This document shows positions 43,035 to 51,208 of a stretch of 64,000 nt of DNA, piece after piece. The DNA is from Hydrogenovibrio kuenenii DSM 12350 (GTDB lineage Bacteria > Pseudomonadota > Gammaproteobacteria > Thiomicrospirales > Thiomicrospiraceae). The position numbers and the translations under genes were made by a program. The notes beneath the pieces are model-generated. The model was not told where the DNA came from. It was given only the letters and a program-made list of their open reading frames with translations, and did not search any database. Location: assembly GCF_000526715.1 (NCBI RefSeq), contig NZ_JAGP01000001.1, positions 558,001 through 622,000 of the forward strand, written 5' to 3'. The stretch's first letter is position 1, and every line of letters begins with the position of its first letter.

Positions 43035-44399
43035 TTATTTTGTTTGCTCTTCATCAGGAACAAATTTCAGAACATTGCCATTGATACAATAACGTTTATG
43101 TGTTGGTGGCGGGCCATCATTAAACACATGACCTAAATGGATACCTGAGCTGGCGCTTATAACCTCTGTACGCTTCATGCCGTGGGAATCATCTTCGCGT
43201 TCCTCAACAGCCCCTTTGACAGGATTAAAGAAACTAGGCCACCCCGTACCACTGTTGAATTTTGTATCACTACGGAACAGGGCTGCACCTGTAATAGGGT
43301 CAACATAAGTGCCGGGACGTTTTTCATCTAAATGAGACCCTGTAAAGGCCCATTCGGTTCCTTTGTGAAAAGCGATTTTTCGCTGTTCGGGTGTGAGTAG
43401 ACGAAAACCAAGCCATTTCCAGAATCGGTCTTTATCACCGCTATACCCTGTGTAGCGTGACACTTCTTTGCCATGTTCGAAAAAGACAATGGTCGGTGTG
43501 GCAAACAAGGGTTTTTCCAATGTCCAGCCTTTTGGCGGGTTAGGGTTTAAAGTGGTGATAACCGGAACATCCGCTTTCCAGCTATTTAGAATCTCTTTGG
43601 TGAAGAGTTTGCAGTAAGGGCAGTCTTCGGCTTCAAACACAATCAATTGCTTGTCCATATGCAACTTAGAAGCATCTAAAATAGGGTGTCCTGATGGCTT
43701 GTTGGTTGATCCCGGGTAGGCAACACCTGTTCCTCCAAGCCCACAATAGCCATTAGGGTTCTTTTTCAAATAATCCTGATGGTAATCTTCCGCCTTGATG
43801 TAATTGTGTAGTGGTGCGATTTCCGTGGTGATTTTGCCATAGCCTGCTTTGGTTAGGGCAGCCTGGTAGATTTTCTTAGTTTCTTCGGCAATAGCCTTTT
43901 GATCTGGTTCTGTATAGTAAATGACGCTACGGTAGTTGGTGCCGATGTCGTTGCCTTGTCGATTTCCTTGCGTTGGGTCGTGATTTTCCCAGAATTTGAT
44001 AAGAACGGTTTTTAGACTAACGACAGCAGGGTTAAAGGTTACTTTCACCACTTCAGCATGGTTGCGTGCGTGAGATTTTCCCATTTCAATTTCACGCTCA
44101 AGCCCAAGTACATCGTAGTACCCAGCATGTTTCGCATCACCACCAGCATAGCCAACTTCTACATGAGTGACCCCTGGGATTTCGCCCATGCGTTTTTCTG
44201 CCCCCCAAAAACATCCCATACCTACAACAATCGTTTCGGTTTTCATAGGTGTTTCTTTAGCGGCGACGACATCACCCATTGCTTGTGTAGTGTTCATTTG
44301 TTTCTCCTGTGCACAGCCTTGTACCGAAAAGAATAACATGCTCACTAGCGCAAACCAAAAGGTTGACCAGATTCGAGAGCGTTGAAATTTCGTTGCCAT
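43035..44399 (-). CDS. MsrA-thioredoxin-MsrB methionine sulfoxide reductase lipoprotein
   Basis: A three-domain periplasmic repair enzyme of 454 residues. The lipobox is FFSVQGC. MsrA comes first (VVGMGCFWGAEKRM, catalytic Cys; GTNYRSVIYYT), then a thioredoxin-like domain with VFEAEDCPYCKLF and the cis-Pro region FATPTIVFF, then MsrB (NSGTGWPSFFNP, HLGHVFNDGPPP, RYCING with the catalytic Cys). The MsrB part lacks the usual zinc-binding CxxC pairs (TGAALFRS replaces CxxC). The start is ATG 44399 or 44408; both give the same signal. It reduces both S- and R-methionine sulfoxide in exported proteins, with its own thiol relay. Domain order differs from Neisseria PilB (Trx-MsrA-MsrB). Confidence 0.9.
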   Translation of the reverse strand: MATKFQRSRIWSTFWFALVSMLFFSVQGCAQEKQMNTTQAMGDVVAAKETPMKTETIVVGMGCFWGAEKRMGEIPGVTHVEVGYAGGDAKHAGYYDVLGLEREIEMGKSHARNHAEVVKVTFNPAVVSLKTVLIKFWENHDPTQGNRQGNDIGTNYRSVIYYTEPDQKAIAEETKKIYQAALTKAGYGKITTEIAPLHNYIKAEDYHQDYLKKNPNGYCGLGGTGVAYPGSTNKPSGHPILDASKLHMDKQLIVFEAEDCPYCKLFTKEILNSWKADVPVITTLNPNPPKGWTLEKPLFATPTIVFFEHGKEVSRYTGYSGDKDRFWKWLGFRLLTPEQRKIAFHKGTEWAFTGSHLDEKRPGTYVDPITGAALFRSDTKFNSGTGWPSFFNPVKGAVEEREDDSHGMKRTEVISASSGIHLGHVFNDGPPPTHKRYCINGNVLKFVPDEEQTK

Positions 44400-44702
44400 A
44401 AGTTTCATCCATTTTTTGTGAGTCTTATTGTAATAGACCGAGTAGAGGTGAATATCTTCCACAGGAACCTGAGTGGTCACAGTTTAGTCATGTTTTGCAC
44501 ATAAACATACTCATATTTGTTTTATATATTGCTCAATATTTTGGCTATTCAGCCGATAATCTTATGCGAAACAGTGGTCATTTAGAACCGCAAAAAAATA
44601 TAAAAATATCACTTTAGACCAGAAAACAAAGTGAATCCGCTATCAAGGGAAAGCGCAACTTAATAGAGTTGTGATAAGTCAACGATAAGTGGAGCACATA
44701 AT
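44400..44702. other. Divergent intergenic region with candidate sigma-28 promoter
   Basis: No gene is seen in these 303 bp. An exact GCCGATAA (the FliA -10 box) lies at 44552-44559, preceded after 11 bp by TCAATATT (44533-44540), a partial match to TAAAGTTT. It points towards the calcium-binding-type gene. GTGGAG at 44688-44693 precedes its ATG. Confidence 0.45.
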
Positions 44703-46007
44703 ATGATTATATCTTCTTCCCAGGTGTCTCTGGGGCACGCACAGTCTGACAGCACTAAGCTGACACAAAGAACCCGAACCGATATCTCGCACGCGGATAC
44801 TACAAGCAACGAGGGCAGGTTGGTAATGGTAGCTTCGTCAAAAAATACTTACGATTACTCGCAATACAATCGAACAAAAATCAATGCACAAAGTGAGATT
44901 CGACAGGGTGATGACTCACAGCAATATACCTTGAGTCAGGTTACAGAAAAGCTTAGCCAAGCAAGTTTAAGTGCAGATAATGCGCAAATAGCACTTCAAA
45001 AAGCATTTCCTTCTGGACCAGCGACGGAGATGAGTTTGAGTGGCGAAGTCGCGTTTAATTTTACACATCAAATTCATTACCAACAGGAGAGTAATAGCTT
45101 TTTGAGCTCTCATGGCACAGTGACTTTAGCAGATGGGCGGGAGGTAGATTTTGCACTCACACTTAGTCAGCAACAAAGTACACAAGTCGATGCACAAACT
45201 CAGGTTGAGTTTGGTTTAACAAAACTGAAAGACCCTTTAGTCATTAATTTCGGTAGCGATACTGTGCAACTGCAAGACACCAGTTTTGCATTCGATATGC
45301 AAGCCAATGGCAAAACAGGAAAATATGCTTCTCTTGGAAAGGGAAGTGGTTATCTTACCTTTGATGCCAATGGCGATGGCAAGGTGACGGATGGTTCTGA
45401 ATTGTTTGGTACGAAAACCGGTAATGCTTACGGTGAACTTGCGCAATACGATGATGATCACAATGGCTGGATAGACGAAAATGATGCCATTTTTAAACGT
45501 TTGAAATTATGGCAAAATCAGGCTGATCCAAACGCAACTCTTACGTTAACCGAAGCAGGGGTTGGTGCGATTTATCTGGGCAATGCTAATTATGCACAGG
45601 AGTTACGAGGTTCTCAGGGAGAGTTATTAGGTAAAACCAAGCAAGCAGGGGTTGTGCTGATGGAAAATGGGCAAGTGAAAACGTCTCAGGCGATTGATTT
45701 AGCTGAGCTTCCGAAGGATAGGGCGTTAAAGACGATAGAAAATAGTCGAGCATTTAAGCAGCTGCAAAAAATGGCTGATGATTTCAATCATATGCAGCAA
45801 GCTCGTCAATCTATGAAAAATAGCTTTAAGTTATCCAACTCATTCAATGCACACTTTGGTTGGTCTATTTCGCGACGAACTGAGGAAACGGAAAAACCTA
45901 AAACCCTGTTTGAGCAATTGCAGGAATATATTGAAAAAGAGATCGAAGCACGCAAAAAACTACTAGACTGGTTGGAGTCTAGTTATAACATCAAAGGCCA
46001 TGCTTAA
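44703..46007 (+). CDS. Protein with EF-hand/VCBS-like calcium loops
   Basis: A 434-residue protein. The recognisable part is at about residues 215-275: TFDANGDGKVTDGSELFG and YDDDHNGWIDENDAIFKRL, two calcium-binding loops of the type found in large adhesins, RTX-like proteins and many small hypothetical proteins. The N-terminal third is Ser/Gln-rich and the C-terminus is helical. No signal peptide or RTX nonapeptide array is present, so export, if any, would need another route. A possible sigma-28 promoter upstream would link it to motility. Function unknown. Confidence 0.65.
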   Translation: MIISSSQVSLGHAQSDSTKLTQRTRTDISHADTTSNEGRLVMVASSKNTYDYSQYNRTKINAQSEIRQGDDSQQYTLSQVTEKLSQASLSADNAQIALQKAFPSGPATEMSLSGEVAFNFTHQIHYQQESNSFLSSHGTVTLADGREVDFALTLSQQQSTQVDAQTQVEFGLTKLKDPLVINFGSDTVQLQDTSFAFDMQANGKTGKYASLGKGSGYLTFDANGDGKVTDGSELFGTKTGNAYGELAQYDDDHNGWIDENDAIFKRLKLWQNQADPNATLTLTEAGVGAIYLGNANYAQELRGSQGELLGKTKQAGVVLMENGQVKTSQAIDLAELPKDRALKTIENSRAFKQLQKMADDFNHMQQARQSMKNSFKLSNSFNAHFGWSISRRTEETEKPKTLFEQLQEYIEKEIEARKKLLDWLESSYNIKGHA

Positions 46008-46689: not shown

Positions 46690-47664
46690 ATGCATTTTCC
46701 TAGATTAAAGATTGCCGTATCCGACTGTTTAAGAGGCACAGAATGTCGTTATAACGGTGGTCATGCACAGGATGATTTCGTTAATCACCATTTAGCAAAA
46801 TACGCGGATTTTTATCCTTTCTGTCCTGAAGCCGCTGTAATAGGTACGCCTCGAGAAACCATTCGTTTGGTGGAAGAGCAACAAGGCGTACGCGTTAAAG
46901 GACACAAAAGTGCAACCGACTACACAGAAGGCCTTAAAGCTTACGGCGATAAAATGGTACCTAAATTATTAGGAATGCATCTTGATGCCGCTGTGGTGAA
47001 ATCAAAATCACCTAGTTGTGGGATAGAACGCATTAAAGTTTATCAACCCAATGGTGAATGGCATGGCTCTAAAGACCCTATGACATCTGGATTATTTACA
47101 GGGCAGTTAAGAGAGCAAGCGCCTTATTTGGCGATAGAAGATGAAGGGCGCTTGCAAGATGCATGGTTGAGAGAGAACTTTATGCTGCATGCTTTTACTT
47201 CCGCTCGTTGGCGAGAACTATTAGAAGCGACCCCCAGCCTGGCAGATTTTCAGATTTTTCACCGAGATCATAAATACCTATTCATGTCTAAAAGTGAAGT
47301 GATTTACCGAGAGATGGGACCCTTGGTTGCCAATACAAGAGCTGATAATTTAGAGGATCAACTTCAAGCTTACCAAGAAAAAATGTTTGAACTGCTAGCA
47401 CATCGTTCCACCAAAGGGCAGGTAAGAAATGTGTTAGATCATGTTTATGGTTATTTTAAAGAGCAGATCAGTGCTGATGAGAAAGATCATTATCAGCAGA
47501 CGGTACAGGAATTCATTCAGGGGGTTATTCCATTGATTGCCGTGATAAAGGTGCTGGAGCAATTTTTGAATCACTATGGTTCCGATTACCTGTCCACCCA
47601 AGTGTTTTTCCACCCCTATCCTGCGGACCTCGCTTTGAGATCGGAAGTATCGGCTTTTAGGTAG
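46690..47664 (+). CDS. TudS/DUF523-DUF1722 (YbgA-like) protein
   Basis: A 324-residue fusion. Residues 1-155 are DUF523: IAVSDCLRGTECRYNGG, FCPEAAVIGTPRETIRLV and KSKSPSCGI, with three or more conserved cysteines that in TudS enzymes hold a [4Fe-4S] cluster for thiouracil desulfurisation. Residues 170-310 are DUF1722 (YbgA): HRDHKYLFMSKSEVIYREMG, ending VFFHPYPADLALRSEV. ATG 46690 follows AAAGGGAG. In E. coli ybgA neighbours the photolyase gene; here photolyase is about 7 kb away. A degenerate copy of the 3' end lies at 49029-49115. One copy of the dispersed element is inside this gene. Confidence 0.85.
   Translation: MHFPRLKIAVSDCLRGTECRYNGGHAQDDFVNHHLAKYADFYPFCPEAAVIGTPRETIRLVEEQQGVRVKGHKSATDYTEGLKAYGDKMVPKLLGMHLDAAVVKSKSPSCGIERIKVYQPNGEWHGSKDPMTSGLFTGQLREQAPYLAIEDEGRLQDAWLRENFMLHAFTSARWRELLEATPSLADFQIFHRDHKYLFMSKSEVIYREMGPLVANTRADNLEDQLQAYQEKMFELLAHRSTKGQVRNVLDHVYGYFKEQISADEKDHYQQTVQEFIQGVIPLIAVIKVLEQFLNHYGSDYLSTQVFFHPYPADLALRSEVSAFR
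47232..47250 (-). repeat. Dispersed element copy inside the TudS/YbgA gene
   Basis: CCCCAGCCTGGCAGATTTT, the reverse complement of AAAATCTGCCAGGCTGGGG. Read as codons it gives P-S-L-A-D-F in the linker between the two domains. Confidence 0.85.
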
Positions 47665-47772
47665 CGACTGTTTCGATGAGTTATATTTGGGGACGGATTC
47701 AAAACATATGCTTGTTTTTGCCCAAATAAACTGGTCAAATGAAATCAACAATACAATATAGGGTAAAGGATT

Positions 47773-48888
47773 GTGGATGAAATCACCCTTTCAAATGAAG
47801 TGACTTTCAGTGAAGAACTGAAGGAAATCTATCACTATCTTCACAGTAAATACCCTGCTATCGAGCGAGTGGCTGTCGCCCTTTATGAACCAAGTACCGA
47901 TATTCTTATCACCTTTGCCTACACAGGTGAGTACGACACGCCTTTATCCATGTATGATTTTCAATTTTCCCAATCAGAATCTTTGAATAAAGTAAGGCAG
48001 AGCCGGCTTCCTAGAATCGTGGATGATATTGATTTGTATGAACCTAACAGTAGAGTTCATACCGACCAAATTCGTAAAGCGGGCTTCAAATCCAGTTATA
48101 CCTACCCGATGTTCAACGGAAATAATTTTCTGGGGATGATTTTTTTTAATTCAAAACAGAAATCGGCATTCACCGACGAGATGGTTTATGACATCGAGTT
48201 GGTCTGTCCATTACTGACCGTGATGGTCGCAAATGAAAAACGGGTAGAAAATCTCTTACTTGCCACGGTGCATACAACTCTGGAACTGAGCAAGGAAAGA
48301 GACCCAGAAACACAAGAACACATGGCTCGTGTGGCTCATTATGCAAGAATTATCGCTAAAGAGGTAGCGCCGGATTATGGGTATGATGATGAATTCGTAG
48401 AGCACGTATTCATGTTTGCACCATTGCATGACATCGGCAAAATTTCCATTCCGGATGAAATTTTAAGGAAGCCCGGTAAGTTGACGGATGAGGAATTTGA
48501 TTTCATGAAGGTGCACACGACAAAAGGGTCAGATTTGGCAGGCCTTTTGTTGAAAAATTTTGACTTGGAAAATATAAAGTTCGCGCCCATGATTAAGAAC
48601 GTTATCCGGTATCATCATGAAAAAGTCGATGGCAGCGGTTATCCGGACGGTCTGAAGGGCGATGAAATTCCTTTGGAATCTAAGATTGTGGCGGTTGCAG
48701 ATATTTTCGACGCTTTGACCACCGTAAGACCCTATAAACAGGCTTGGTCAAATGCGGCCGCGTTTGCGGAGTTAGAGGAAATGGCAAATCAAGGTTTGCT
48801 GGACAAAACCTGCGTTGAAGCTCTGGTTGAACACAAAGAAAAGGTCTGTGAGATACAAGAGACACTCGCAGACCCTAAGATAAGCTGA
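47773..48888 (+). CDS. GAF-like/HD-GYP cyclic-di-GMP phosphodiesterase (copy 1)
   Basis: A 371-residue protein from GTG 47773. Residues 1-160 are a GAF-like sensor (VAVALYEPSTDILITFAYTG, FKSSYTYPMFNGNNFLGMIFF). Residues 175-345 are an HD-GYP domain: DPETQEHMARVAHYARII, PLHDIGKISIPDEIL (HD pair), YHHEKVDGSGYPDGLKGDEI (HHExxDGxGYP) and DIFDALTTVRPYK, all metal ligands intact. It should hydrolyse c-di-GMP. A second copy with the same architecture lies at 49178; the residue-level similarity is high throughout. Confidence 0.93.
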   Translation: MDEITLSNEVTFSEELKEIYHYLHSKYPAIERVAVALYEPSTDILITFAYTGEYDTPLSMYDFQFSQSESLNKVRQSRLPRIVDDIDLYEPNSRVHTDQIRKAGFKSSYTYPMFNGNNFLGMIFFNSKQKSAFTDEMVYDIELVCPLLTVMVANEKRVENLLLATVHTTLELSKERDPETQEHMARVAHYARIIAKEVAPDYGYDDEFVEHVFMFAPLHDIGKISIPDEILRKPGKLTDEEFDFMKVHTTKGSDLAGLLLKNFDLENIKFAPMIKNVIRYHHEKVDGSGYPDGLKGDEIPLESKIVAVADIFDALTTVRPYKQAWSNAAAFAELEEMANQGLLDKTCVEALVEHKEKVCEIQETLADPKIS

Positions 48889-48907
48889 CCTAAGCTTTAT
48901 ATACCTG

Positions 48908-49028
48908 CTATTTAGACCTGATGAAGTTGACCATTTTCTCGACAGCTTCTTCCCATTGCAAAATCCAGACAAGAGTGCGATGCACCATCGACTTCGTAAA
49001 GATGGGTGCTTTTGTGTTGCTTCAACAC
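48908..49028 (-). pseudogene. Fossil 3' end of the alpha/beta hydrolase gene
   Basis: On the minus strand it reads VLKQHKSTHLYEVDGASH then, after a frameshift, EEAVEKMVNFIR. The intact hydrolase at 50303 ends VLQKHANIHLDVIDGATH ... EDAVEKMVSFIQ. The DNA aligns without gaps over about 100 bp. It lies directly after HD-GYP copy 1, as the intact hydrolase end lies after copy 2. Confidence 0.88.
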
Positions 49029-49115
49029 GGCTAGAATTACTTATCTACTTAGGTTTTCTTAAACCCCTATCCCGCAGGTTTAGCCCTCAGATCAAAAGTC
49101 GATGCTTTTAGATAG
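49029..49115 (+). pseudogene. Fossil 3' end of the TudS/YbgA gene
   Basis: It reads, up to its stop at 49113-49115, NPYPAGLALRSKVDAFR, against HPYPADLALRSEVSAFR at the end of the intact gene (47611-47664). The DNA also aligns upstream to about 49030, with an in-frame TAG at 49050. It lies before HD-GYP copy 2 exactly as the intact gene lies before copy 1. Confidence 0.9.
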
Positions 49116-49177
49116 TTGTTTTTACAGACTTTTGTATTAGAATGTGAATATAACATTATAAAGATAAGGGTTATTTT

Positions 49178-50293
49178 ATGTTCTCACTTACGGAGTCTAA
49201 GAGTCAATCTTTTGGTGAACAGTTATCTTGGGTTCGTAGTTATTTGAATCAAAGGCTAAGCTTTATTCATCGTATTGGCGTTGCTTTGTATGATGAAACG
49301 ACTGGAAGTTTAAAGACTTTTGCTTTTTCAGGTGATGAAGCAGAGAACCTAACCTTTTACGAATATAAGTTGTCGAATTCGGAGTCATTAAGAAAGCTTA
49401 AGGAAACCCGACAGCCTCGAATTGTACAGGATATAACTGCTTTTAGCTCTAATGGTCGAGAACACACTGAAAGCATAAGAAAAGCGGGTTATAAATCCAG
49501 TTATATTGTCCCTATTTATGATGCAGAAAAGTTTATTGGAATGGTCTCTTTTAATTCTAAAGAAAAAGACTATTTTCAAGATGACGTGATTATAGCTCTT
49601 AAGTTGGCGGTGAATTTTATTAGCCTATTGATGACCAATCTTAAACGTACGCAACATACACTAGAAGCCACTATCCAAACAACGCTTGAATTAACGCATG
49701 AAAAAGACCCTGAAACACGGGAGCATGTTAGTCGAGTTGCATACTATGCACGCCATATAGCTAAGGGCGTAGCAAGCAAATATCAACTCAATGATGAGTT
49801 TATAGAGTACGTTTTCATGTTTTCACCTTTGCATGATATCGGTAAAATTTCGATACCAGATGATATTCTTCGAAAACCTGGAAAATTAACCGTTGAAGAG
49901 TTTGAAGTGATGAAGACGCACACGATCAAAGGTTATGACTTAAGTAAAACAATGTTAAAAAATTATGGCCTTGAAAAAATAAAGCAAGCTGGCGTAATCA
50001 AAAATATCATACGATCTCATCACGAGAAGTTAGATGGCTCTGGTTATCCAGATGGTCTTAAAGAAAAAGAGATTCCTACAGAGGCGAAAATCGTTGCAGT
50101 AGCGGATATTTTTGATGCGTTAACGACGGTTCGACCTTATAAATTGTCTTGGAGTAATGAGGAAGCTTTTGAAGAGTTGCTTCGTATGTCAAACAAAGGG
50201 TTATTGTGTCAAAGTTGTGTTCAAGCGTTGATAGAGGAAGAAGAGTCAATTCAAGAGATTCAAACGTTACTGGCCGATAAACGGCCAGCATGA
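49178..50293 (+). CDS. GAF-like/HD-GYP cyclic-di-GMP phosphodiesterase (copy 2)
   Basis: A 371-residue paralogue of the gene at 47773, the same length, with matching motifs: VALYDETTGSLKTFAFSGD, YKSSYIVPIYDAEKFIGMVSF, DPETREHVSRVAYYARHI, PLHDIGKISIPDDILRKPGK, SHHEKLDGSGYPDGLKEKEI, DIFDALTTVRPYK. Differences are concentrated in the sensor half, so the two may answer different signals while sharing output. ATG 49178; AAGGG lies about 8 bp upstream. Confidence 0.93.
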   Translation: MFSLTESKSQSFGEQLSWVRSYLNQRLSFIHRIGVALYDETTGSLKTFAFSGDEAENLTFYEYKLSNSESLRKLKETRQPRIVQDITAFSSNGREHTESIRKAGYKSSYIVPIYDAEKFIGMVSFNSKEKDYFQDDVIIALKLAVNFISLLMTNLKRTQHTLEATIQTTLELTHEKDPETREHVSRVAYYARHIAKGVASKYQLNDEFIEYVFMFSPLHDIGKISIPDDILRKPGKLTVEEFEVMKTHTIKGYDLSKTMLKNYGLEKIKQAGVIKNIIRSHHEKLDGSGYPDGLKEKEIPTEAKIVAVADIFDALTTVRPYKLSWSNEEAFEELLRMSNKGLLCQSCVQALIEEEESIQEIQTLLADKRPA

Positions 50294-50302
50294 TAATTTT
50301 AG

Positions 50303-51208
50303 TTAGTCTTTTTGGATGAAAGAGACCATTTTCTCAACCGCATCCTCTCCCGCGAAATCACGGTAAAAGTGCGTGGCACCATCAATTACATCAAGATGAA
50401 TGTTTGCATGCTTTTGTAAAACAGGTTTCATTCTCTCAGGCAAATCTTTCACGACAGTATCATCCGTCCCTGCAAAAACCAAAACGGGTTTTTTGATCTT
50501 CGGCAGTAAATGAACCGTGTCCATATTCGGATTAAAATCATAGTAGCTTGCAAAACTAGCAGCTGTTACTTTGGCATCTTCACAATAGACTAAATCAGTA
50601 TGAGGCATCACTTCATTGCCTTTACCTGCTTTAACCAGTTTATCGGCTTTAGCGACTTCTTTGGTCAAGTCTTTGTGGAAACGTTGTTTATACTCAGCAA
50701 TTTCACTTTTCTTTGACCAAAGTTGCGGTGCAAATAGCACGACGTGTTTAATATTCGCATCTGCATTGTGTTCTGATGCATACCAAGCTGTTTGGTTGCC
50801 ACCGCGAGAGTGGCCAGCAAGCGTGATGTTGTGAACGCCTTGCTTTTCAAGCCACTTGACCCATGCTCCAATTTCTTTCATCGCATCAGTATGCTTATGA
50901 GTGTGGATTCGGTCACAGGAAATCATCGCGTTATCATGGCGATCATTCACATTGAAGCTTAAGTTGATAGTGAGGATGTTGATGCCTGAATCCGGCAAGT
51001 AGTTCTTTAGCGTGTTGGCTGTGCTGTAGTTATTATTCATCCATGTACCATGAGTGAAAAGTACCACACCATCTTTCAGAGTTTTACCATCAGCTAAAAG
51101 TAACTCTCCGTTCAAAGTTAATTCTCCAAACGGAATTTTAACTTCTTTAGCAAATGCCGAATGAGACAAACTAAACATTAATAGAAAAGCATATATTACC
51201 GTCTTCAT
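50303..51208 (-). CDS. Exported alpha/beta hydrolase
   Basis: A 301-residue secreted hydrolase. ATG 51208 is chosen because GAGGTG lies 4 bp upstream and a signal peptide follows (MKTVIYAFLLMFSLSHSAFA). It has the oxyanion region LFTHGTWMNNN, the nucleophile elbow LAGHSRGGNQTA (Ser), VFAGTDDTVV (Asp) and DGATHFYRDF (His). Substrate unknown; small ester or peptide likely. The 3' end has a broken duplicate at 48908. Confidence 0.85.
   Translation of the reverse strand: MKTVIYAFLLMFSLSHSAFAKEVKIPFGELTLNGELLLADGKTLKDGVVLFTHGTWMNNNYSTANTLKNYLPDSGINILTINLSFNVNDRHDNAMISCDRIHTHKHTDAMKEIGAWVKWLEKQGVHNITLAGHSRGGNQTAWYASEHNADANIKHVVLFAPQLWSKKSEIAEYKQRFHKDLTKEVAKADKLVKAGKGNEVMPHTDLVYCEDAKVTAASFASYYDFNPNMDTVHLLPKIKKPVLVFAGTDDTVVKDLPERMKPVLQKHANIHLDVIDGATHFYRDFAGEDAVEKMVSFIQKD

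Follow-up and report, generated by a model that had tools for sequence, protein, structure and literature searches.

Tandem paralogues are usually taken to be the outcome of duplication followed by divergence. A stretch of a relative's chromosome inserted next to the resident gene is another known source of a second, already divergent copy. Homology-facilitated illegitimate recombination is reportedly the subject of work on transformation by Prudhomme, de Vries and Meier. In Escherichia coli experiments the process occurs at very low frequency (PMC3240628), and a similar mechanism is proposed for the stepwise addition of effector–immunity modules to type VI secretion system (T6SS) clusters of Vibrio cholerae (PMC5361080). 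Here we describe a doubled gene block in a 64,000-nucleotide stretch of the genome of Hydrogenovibrio kuenenii DSM 12350 (contig NZ_JAGP01000001.1, positions 558,001 to 622,000; hereafter the window, to which all positions refer unless stated), in which broken gene ends lie between two HD-GYP genes and provide an independent test of how the second copy arose. The second block was probably, though by no means surely, added through recombination with a diverged relative in which these genes stood in the same order, in one direction or the other, and not by local copying. A narrow search of titles and abstract openings in the open literature met no publication on this locus.

The order tudS/YbgA 3' end, GAF-HD-GYP gene and convergent hydrolase 3' end is present twice, with a novel junction between the two occurrences. 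The intact tudS/YbgA gene (46690–47664, plus strand; 2-thiouracil desulfurase domain and DUF1722, Pfam PF04463 and PF08349) is followed by the first HD-GYP copy, HD1 (47773–48888, plus strand), and the second copy, HD2 (49178–50293, plus strand), by the intact convergent alpha/beta hydrolase gene (50303–51199, minus strand). Each HD protein has 371 amino acids in a GAF plus HD-GYP arrangement, the GAF match of HD1 scoring 21.2 bits against a Pfam cut-off of 22.4 and the GAF matches of HD2 likewise lying below the cut-off. Between HD1 and HD2 are the last ~39 codons of a second hydrolase copy with one frameshift (hydF, 48908–49028, minus strand) and the last ~30 codons of a second tudS/YbgA copy with two in-frame TAG stops (tudSF, 49029–49115, plus strand). 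They meet at a junction (49023–49034) with its breakpoint at ~49028, a few bases being assignable to either remnant.

Both remnants were assessed by local alignment of the 289-bp gap at 48889–49177 against 300 dinucleotide shuffles. On the plus strand tudSF aligned to the intact tudS 3' end with a score of 63 (shuffle mean 27.5, maximum 47), and on the minus strand hydF aligned to the intact hydrolase 3' end with a score of 76 (mean 27.4, maximum 44), both remnants thereby outscoring all 300 shuffles; a wrong-strand tudS control reached 29. HD1 and HD2 align with a score of 488 (shuffle maximum 45), 55% of residues being identical over 371 columns. A tudS protein query against the genus genomes also recovers tudSF in the window genome (E = 2e-6, 58% identity over 38 residues, with the two TAG codons inside). 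An initial annotation of this DNA had described a block order repeated twice with both inner gene ends broken, and that description is borne out: the remnant coordinates were reproduced to within a few bases, the breakpoint near 49028 was upheld, and the frameshift in the hydrolase end is there, as is the stop in the tudS end, for which the count is two instead of one.

The genus sample comprises 11 genomes, namely the window genome (G000) and 10 genus-mates; G and L labels denote comparison genomes and loci. The single-copy state is present in relatives: two of the 10 genus-mates, G003 and G008, carry a single tudS–HD–hydrolase block in synteny, with the window's neighbour genes in the same order (the msrAB and photolyase-like neighbours at these loci were named by eye), and no HD homologue at E ≤ 1e-50 was found in the other eight. 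The intact tudS protein is 83% identical to that of G003 and 80% to that of G008, and the intact hydrolase 83–84% identical to those of the two. The spacer between the HD and hydrolase genes, 66 bp in G003 and 62 bp in G008, leaves no room for both remnants. Other neighbours surround these genes in loci of 9–10 kb each from G001 (two loci), G005, G009, G012, G018, G040, G042 and G049. In G004 (contig C1, 116221–116630) an HD-GYP homologue reads in two overlapping frames of 104 and 224 amino acids and is possibly a frameshifted gene.

The simplest account, and the one given by the initial annotation, is a tandem duplication with breakpoints in tudS and the hydrolase gene, the remnants being truncated at birth. 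It needs a single event and fits the gene order and the remnants exactly, but under it the two copies should be mutually closest, and HD1 instead groups with the single gene of G003 and G008. HD1 is 70–71% identical to the G003/G008 protein, and HD2 54–56%. In a tree of 18 rows (eight of 26 gathered rows, L003, L010, L017, L102–L105 and L107, were excluded as too distant) HD1, G003 and G008 form a group supported at 99/98 with HD2 outside it. Constraining HD1 to join HD2 costs 14.0 log-likelihood (lnL) units (approximately unbiased (AU) test, p = 0.017), and constraining HD2 to join G003 and G008 costs 14.7 (p = 0.009). According to this tree the split between HD1 and HD2 predates the parting of G000 from G003 and G008, and a tandem duplication later than that parting is disfavored; the signal is mainly that of the sensor half. 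In region-wise tests, for which 12 of the 26 rows were used, codons 8–303 reject HD1 with HD2 (AU p = 0.005 for residues and 0.024 for codon positions 1 and 2), mostly through codons 8–165 of the sensor half (p = 0.018 and 0.032). At least over its first 303 codons, HD1 is nearer to G003 and G008 than to HD2. A FastTree phylogeny of the C-terminal half does not separate HD1, HD2 and G003 (0.27), and in that of the N-terminal half HD2 sits on a very long branch.

Tandem duplication finds support in the last 65 HD codons, which join HD1 to HD2. Over these ~65 codons (48682–48888 and 50087–50293) the copies lean to each other, and HD1 does not lean to G003/G008, an affinity that hints at an old exchange between the copies in a fast-evolving tail. 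Against truncation at birth stands the saturation of synonymous differences between HD1 and HD2 (proportion of synonymous sites that differ, pS, 0.80), yet the remnants are well preserved. That saturation also leaves no usable dN/dS ratio for the two genes. Synonymous distance was likewise set aside for dating or for finding the resident HD gene, fourfold-degenerate identity between G000 and G003/G008 being already 0.25–0.44 in eight flanking genes; with synonymous sites near saturation between G000 and G003, unconstrained remnants older than that split would be hard to recognise, and under the HD tree a duplication in place would have to be that old.

The broken ends bear on the same question from another side. 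A remnant's codon-position pattern tells truncation at the appearance of the second copy from evolution as an intact gene: a tandem duplication with breakpoints inside genes would leave both inner ends non-functional from birth, and equal change at all codon positions would be expected. Neither remnant behaves in this way. Over 26 codons, including the final stop, tudSF has the same base as the tudS gene of G000 in 43 of 52 cases (83%) at codon positions 1 and 2 but in only nine of 26 (35%) at position 3 (Fisher test, p = 3.8e-5); over 39 codons the corresponding figures for hydF and the intact hydrolase gene are 57 of 78 (73%) and 17 of 39 (44%; p = 0.0024). Agreement so much better at positions 1 and 2 means that the remnants passed much of their separate history within intact genes. 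Part of the third-position excess consists of silent changes in the intact gene itself, and in a rough model fitted to allow for these, a remnant neutral since the split did worse than one constrained and then neutral (twice the lnL difference 7.8–12.8 in six settings), the neutral time amounting to at most ~0.35 changes per site. Taken with the HD tree, this pattern makes a simple tandem duplication highly improbable. Of the ancient tandem duplication proposed in the initial annotation, the two blocks, the broken ends, the breakpoint and the single-copy relatives thus stand, and the weak part, in the face of the HD tree, the remnant codon pattern and the base composition considered below, is origin by duplication in place.

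Where the remnants fall among their homologues points in a similar direction. tudSF reads FLNPYPA and RSKV as G001 does and has the same residue in 22 of 26 codons (20 for G000 and 15 for G003; tudS rows L161–L164 differ in C-terminal length, and their counts carry no information), and hydF has residues in common with G009 and L183. In likelihood placement, for which 20 tudS genes out of 30 and 14 hydrolase genes out of 31 were used, tudSF is best placed beside G001 or beside G002 and G004, and a position with G003 and G008 is 7.8 lnL units worse (p = 0.007). The best position of hydF is on the stem of G009 and L183, the branch below the G000/G003/G008 clade being 3.7 units worse (p = 0.28). 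Both best placements fall outside the G000/G003/G008 clade, although each taken alone is weak, and the AU values are erratic amid near-equal placements (one placement 1.0 lnL unit below the best nevertheless had p = 0.019).

These placements could also follow from an older event at home, in which the complete tudS–HD–hydrolase set was duplicated in the ancestor of G000, G003 and G008 and both sets long remained intact before late trimming. G003 and G008 would then have lost one set by recombination between hydrolase ends, and in G000 a late deletion running from inside the first hydrolase gene to inside the second tudS gene would have left the two 3' ends facing each other. Such a course accounts, with no donor, for the HD tree, the coding-like divergence of the remnants and their placement outside the G000 clade. 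However, it requires a duplication, a loss elsewhere and a deletion, and among 62 genomes of the order, seven of which have an HD match at E ≤ 1e-75, G000 alone has two copies. We regard it as unlikely, the more so in view of the base composition of the two copies.

GC content at third codon positions (GC3) is 0.454 in HD1, the highest of the 42 open reading frames (ORFs) of at least 200 amino acids in the window (mean 0.361, standard deviation 0.040), and 0.312 in HD2. Within-genome comparisons of GC3 are noisy, but this gap corresponds to z = 4.0 and persists at 203 codons for the same residue (0.453 versus 0.296); a difference so large would be unexpected between copies that had long resided together, as the old duplication would have it. 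A segment scan from bcp to the chemoreceptor gene, which was not given the junction, delimited a tract from tudS codon 258 to tudSF codon 12 with GC3 of 0.472 against 0.344 outside it, a contrast reached by one of 200 codon shuffles (the shuffles were scanned at a step of 9 and the observed sequence at a step of 3, a slight advantage to the observed value). The right end of this tract falls near the junction. In the 3' part of tudS (codons 253–324) 36 of 72 third positions are G or C against 83 of 252 upstream (p = 0.012), and no such step is seen in the tudS genes of G003 or G001. Within each HD copy GC3 is even, and chimaeric HD genes were set aside on that ground.

On composition, then, the HD1 tract is suggested to be the incomer, with the placement of hydF pulling the other way. 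In this direction of additive recombination, a linear donor fragment consisting of a tudS 3' end, HD1 and a hydrolase 3' end would have paired by homology within the resident tudS gene, near codon 258, and its other end would have been closed by end-joining at ~49028 in the resident tudS tail, as in homology-facilitated illegitimate recombination. The donor tudS end, possibly the last ~67 codons of the present gene (from ~47461), would complete a gene otherwise broken by the insertion, and the resident tudS tail (49029–49115) and the donor's cut hydrolase end (48908–49028) would be left to decay. HD2 and the intact hydrolase gene would be the resident genes, left whole. The HD tree would be satisfied if the donor was closer to G003 and G008 than G000 is, and the cell would have gained, in one step, a second cyclic di-GMP phosphodiesterase whose sensor half already differed from that of the first. 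Of the two borders, the junction at ~49028 is sharp, and the proposed homologous border is marked only by the GC3 shift near tudS codon 258 and the scan. The full form of this proposal, a self-healing insertion in which foreign DNA entered tudS, restored the gene with its own tudS end and brought a complete orthologous phosphodiesterase to lie beside the resident one, we put forward tentatively, as a possibility that falls short of an even chance.

Addition from a relative could also have run in reverse, with hydF, tudSF and HD2 all donor DNA; for example, the ends of a donor fragment might have been ligated to form a circle that entered by a single crossover near the HD and hydrolase 3' ends. 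These three elements are contiguous and all are best placed outside the G000/G003/G008 clade, circularisation by ligation with a single crossover is one of two fates described for linear DNA in E. coli (PMC3240628), and a maximum chi-square test detects a change near HD codon 304 (permutation p = 0.001), beyond which HD1 with HD2 is favored. Nevertheless, the compositionally odd tract is HD1 and not HD2. A crossover at codon 304 also predicts a tail of HD2 that goes with G003 and G008, an arrangement disfavored over codons 304–368 by positions 1 and 2 (p = 0.043) but not by residues (p = 0.42), and a chi-square test of HD2 with G003/G008 gave only p = 0.099, at codon 201. We regard this direction as the less likely of the two.

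Several observations weigh against lateral addition, or against its favored direction. The catalytic-half codons 166–303 alone do not reject HD1 with HD2 (p = 0.18 and 0.19), and codons 304–368 favor that pairing, with HD1 joined to G003/G008 at p = 0.074 for residues and 0.044 for positions 1 and 2. A position of tudSF beside G000 is not rejected (5.1 lnL units worse, AU p = 0.27). The favored direction predicts a hydF resembling those of G003 and G008, and placement with G000 or with G003 and G008 is 10.3 units worse (p = 0.075–0.076). Both remnants are short, and the comparison covered just the parts of them that can still be recognised, which inflates identity; short decaying sequences can also drift towards the outside of a tree. 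The GC3 tract ranks first, at 11.8, when the window is divided into 25 overlapping chunks, but the runner-up reaches 11.1. No donor genome was found: nothing in 62 genomes of the order or in 369 sampled from the class comes closer to HD2 than HD1, G008 and G003 (54–56%), and a search of a wider contig collection gave at best 46% among 56 loci. The G000 genome encodes a ComEC-family protein, but ComEC was also matched in 10 of 14 control genomes and is no proof of competence.

Delivery by a mobile element was considered separately and rejected, since a pattern scan of viral contigs, which reaches close relatives only, showed no HD2 relative and all 50 matching plasmid records were below 60% identity.

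Both HD copies are likely to be active cyclic di-GMP phosphodiesterases, judging by their motifs. The metal ligands of PmGH (PDB 4mcw) are E185, H189, H221, D222, H250, H276, H277 and D305 (PMC4159591). Alignment to this structure (E = 5e-41 for HD1 and 9e-37 for HD2) places equivalents of all eight ligands and the GYP motif in each copy, and the statement in the initial annotation that both retain their catalytic motifs is thus confirmed. HD1 reads DPETQEH, HDIGK, MKVHT, HHEKVDGSGYP and VADIFDALT, and HD2 reads DPETREH, HDIGK, MKTHT, HHEKLDGSGYP and VADIFDALT. The E/D-T-G signature is absent, with ETQ in HD1 and ETR in HD2, G003 and G008, the ligand E itself being retained. The sensor halves have diverged, as had also been claimed: nonsynonymous divergence (dN) between HD1 and HD2 is 0.59 in the sensor half and 0.24 in the catalytic half, against 0.23 and 0.21 between HD1 and G003. 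The branch of HD2 is likewise longer in the sensor half (0.54 versus 0.32), but other distant members have a similar ratio, for example G012 (0.67 versus 0.39, FastTree). The new signal specificity suggested in the initial annotation is no more than plausible.

Some features of the surroundings deserve mention in their own right. An inverted repeat, AAGGCCTTCC / GGAAGGCC, lies in the HD–hydrolase spacers of G003 and G008 (L130, 7797–7862, and L131, 7921–7982), where it might form the end of both convergent transcripts; it is absent from the L130 terminator-scan listing, and no such repeat was seen in the two spacers of G000 (19 and 9 bp). In the G003 stretch the scan listed three terminator-like sites, where shuffles averaged 1.4, and this spacer holds none of the three; promoter and terminator scans of the window stretch gave no excess over shuffles. 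Two genomes of a neighbouring genus each have two near-full-length tudS/YbgA matches, which in G025 (contig C1, 429835–430806 and 438559–439527) are ~8 kb apart on opposite strands and in G045 (contig C1) lie at 2237322–2238290 and 469298–470329. Upstream of the block, the ORF at 43035–44480 (minus strand) reads as a secreted fusion of MsrA, a thioredoxin-like domain and MsrB, domains named by eye. At 89% identity to G003/G008 it is better conserved than the other seven flanking genes in the comparison. The ORF at 44703–46007 (plus strand, 434 amino acids) has no Pfam match, yet is 67–69% identical in G003 and G008; its DxDxDG-like stretches presumably resemble calcium-binding EF-hand loops. 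The G000 assembly consists of one contig of 2,449,025 bases and a further ~3.4 kb that may be a small plasmid.

If lateral addition is the true origin here and is common, tandem paralogues in cyclic di-GMP signalling would often be imported xenologues, marked by the coding-like decay of orphan gene ends, and the codon-position test can be applied to any tandem pair with leftover ends. The proposed course resembles homology-facilitated illegitimate recombination as presented in PMC3240628 in that foreign DNA would be anchored by homology at one end and joined illegitimately at the other; it differs in that the event here is old and read from sequence, and in that the anchor gene was seemingly healed by the end of the donor's gene. 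As in the T6SS clusters of V. cholerae, an incoming module would have been placed beside a resident whose genes remain, but in those clusters it is displaced immunity genes that are kept (PMC5361080), whereas the leftovers here are gene ends in decay and the acquired gene encodes a signalling enzyme. Merodiploids of Streptococcus pneumoniae likewise involve a tandem pair created by transformation, although those duplications span ~100 to ~900 kb and arise between repeats (PMC3784515). As for the enzymes themselves, HD1 and HD2 resemble PmGH in the fusion of GAF to HD-GYP, in all eight metal ligands and in the HD and GYP motifs, and they differ from it in having ETQ or ETR instead of E/D-T-G and in a sensor half too diverged for the transfer of a ligand.

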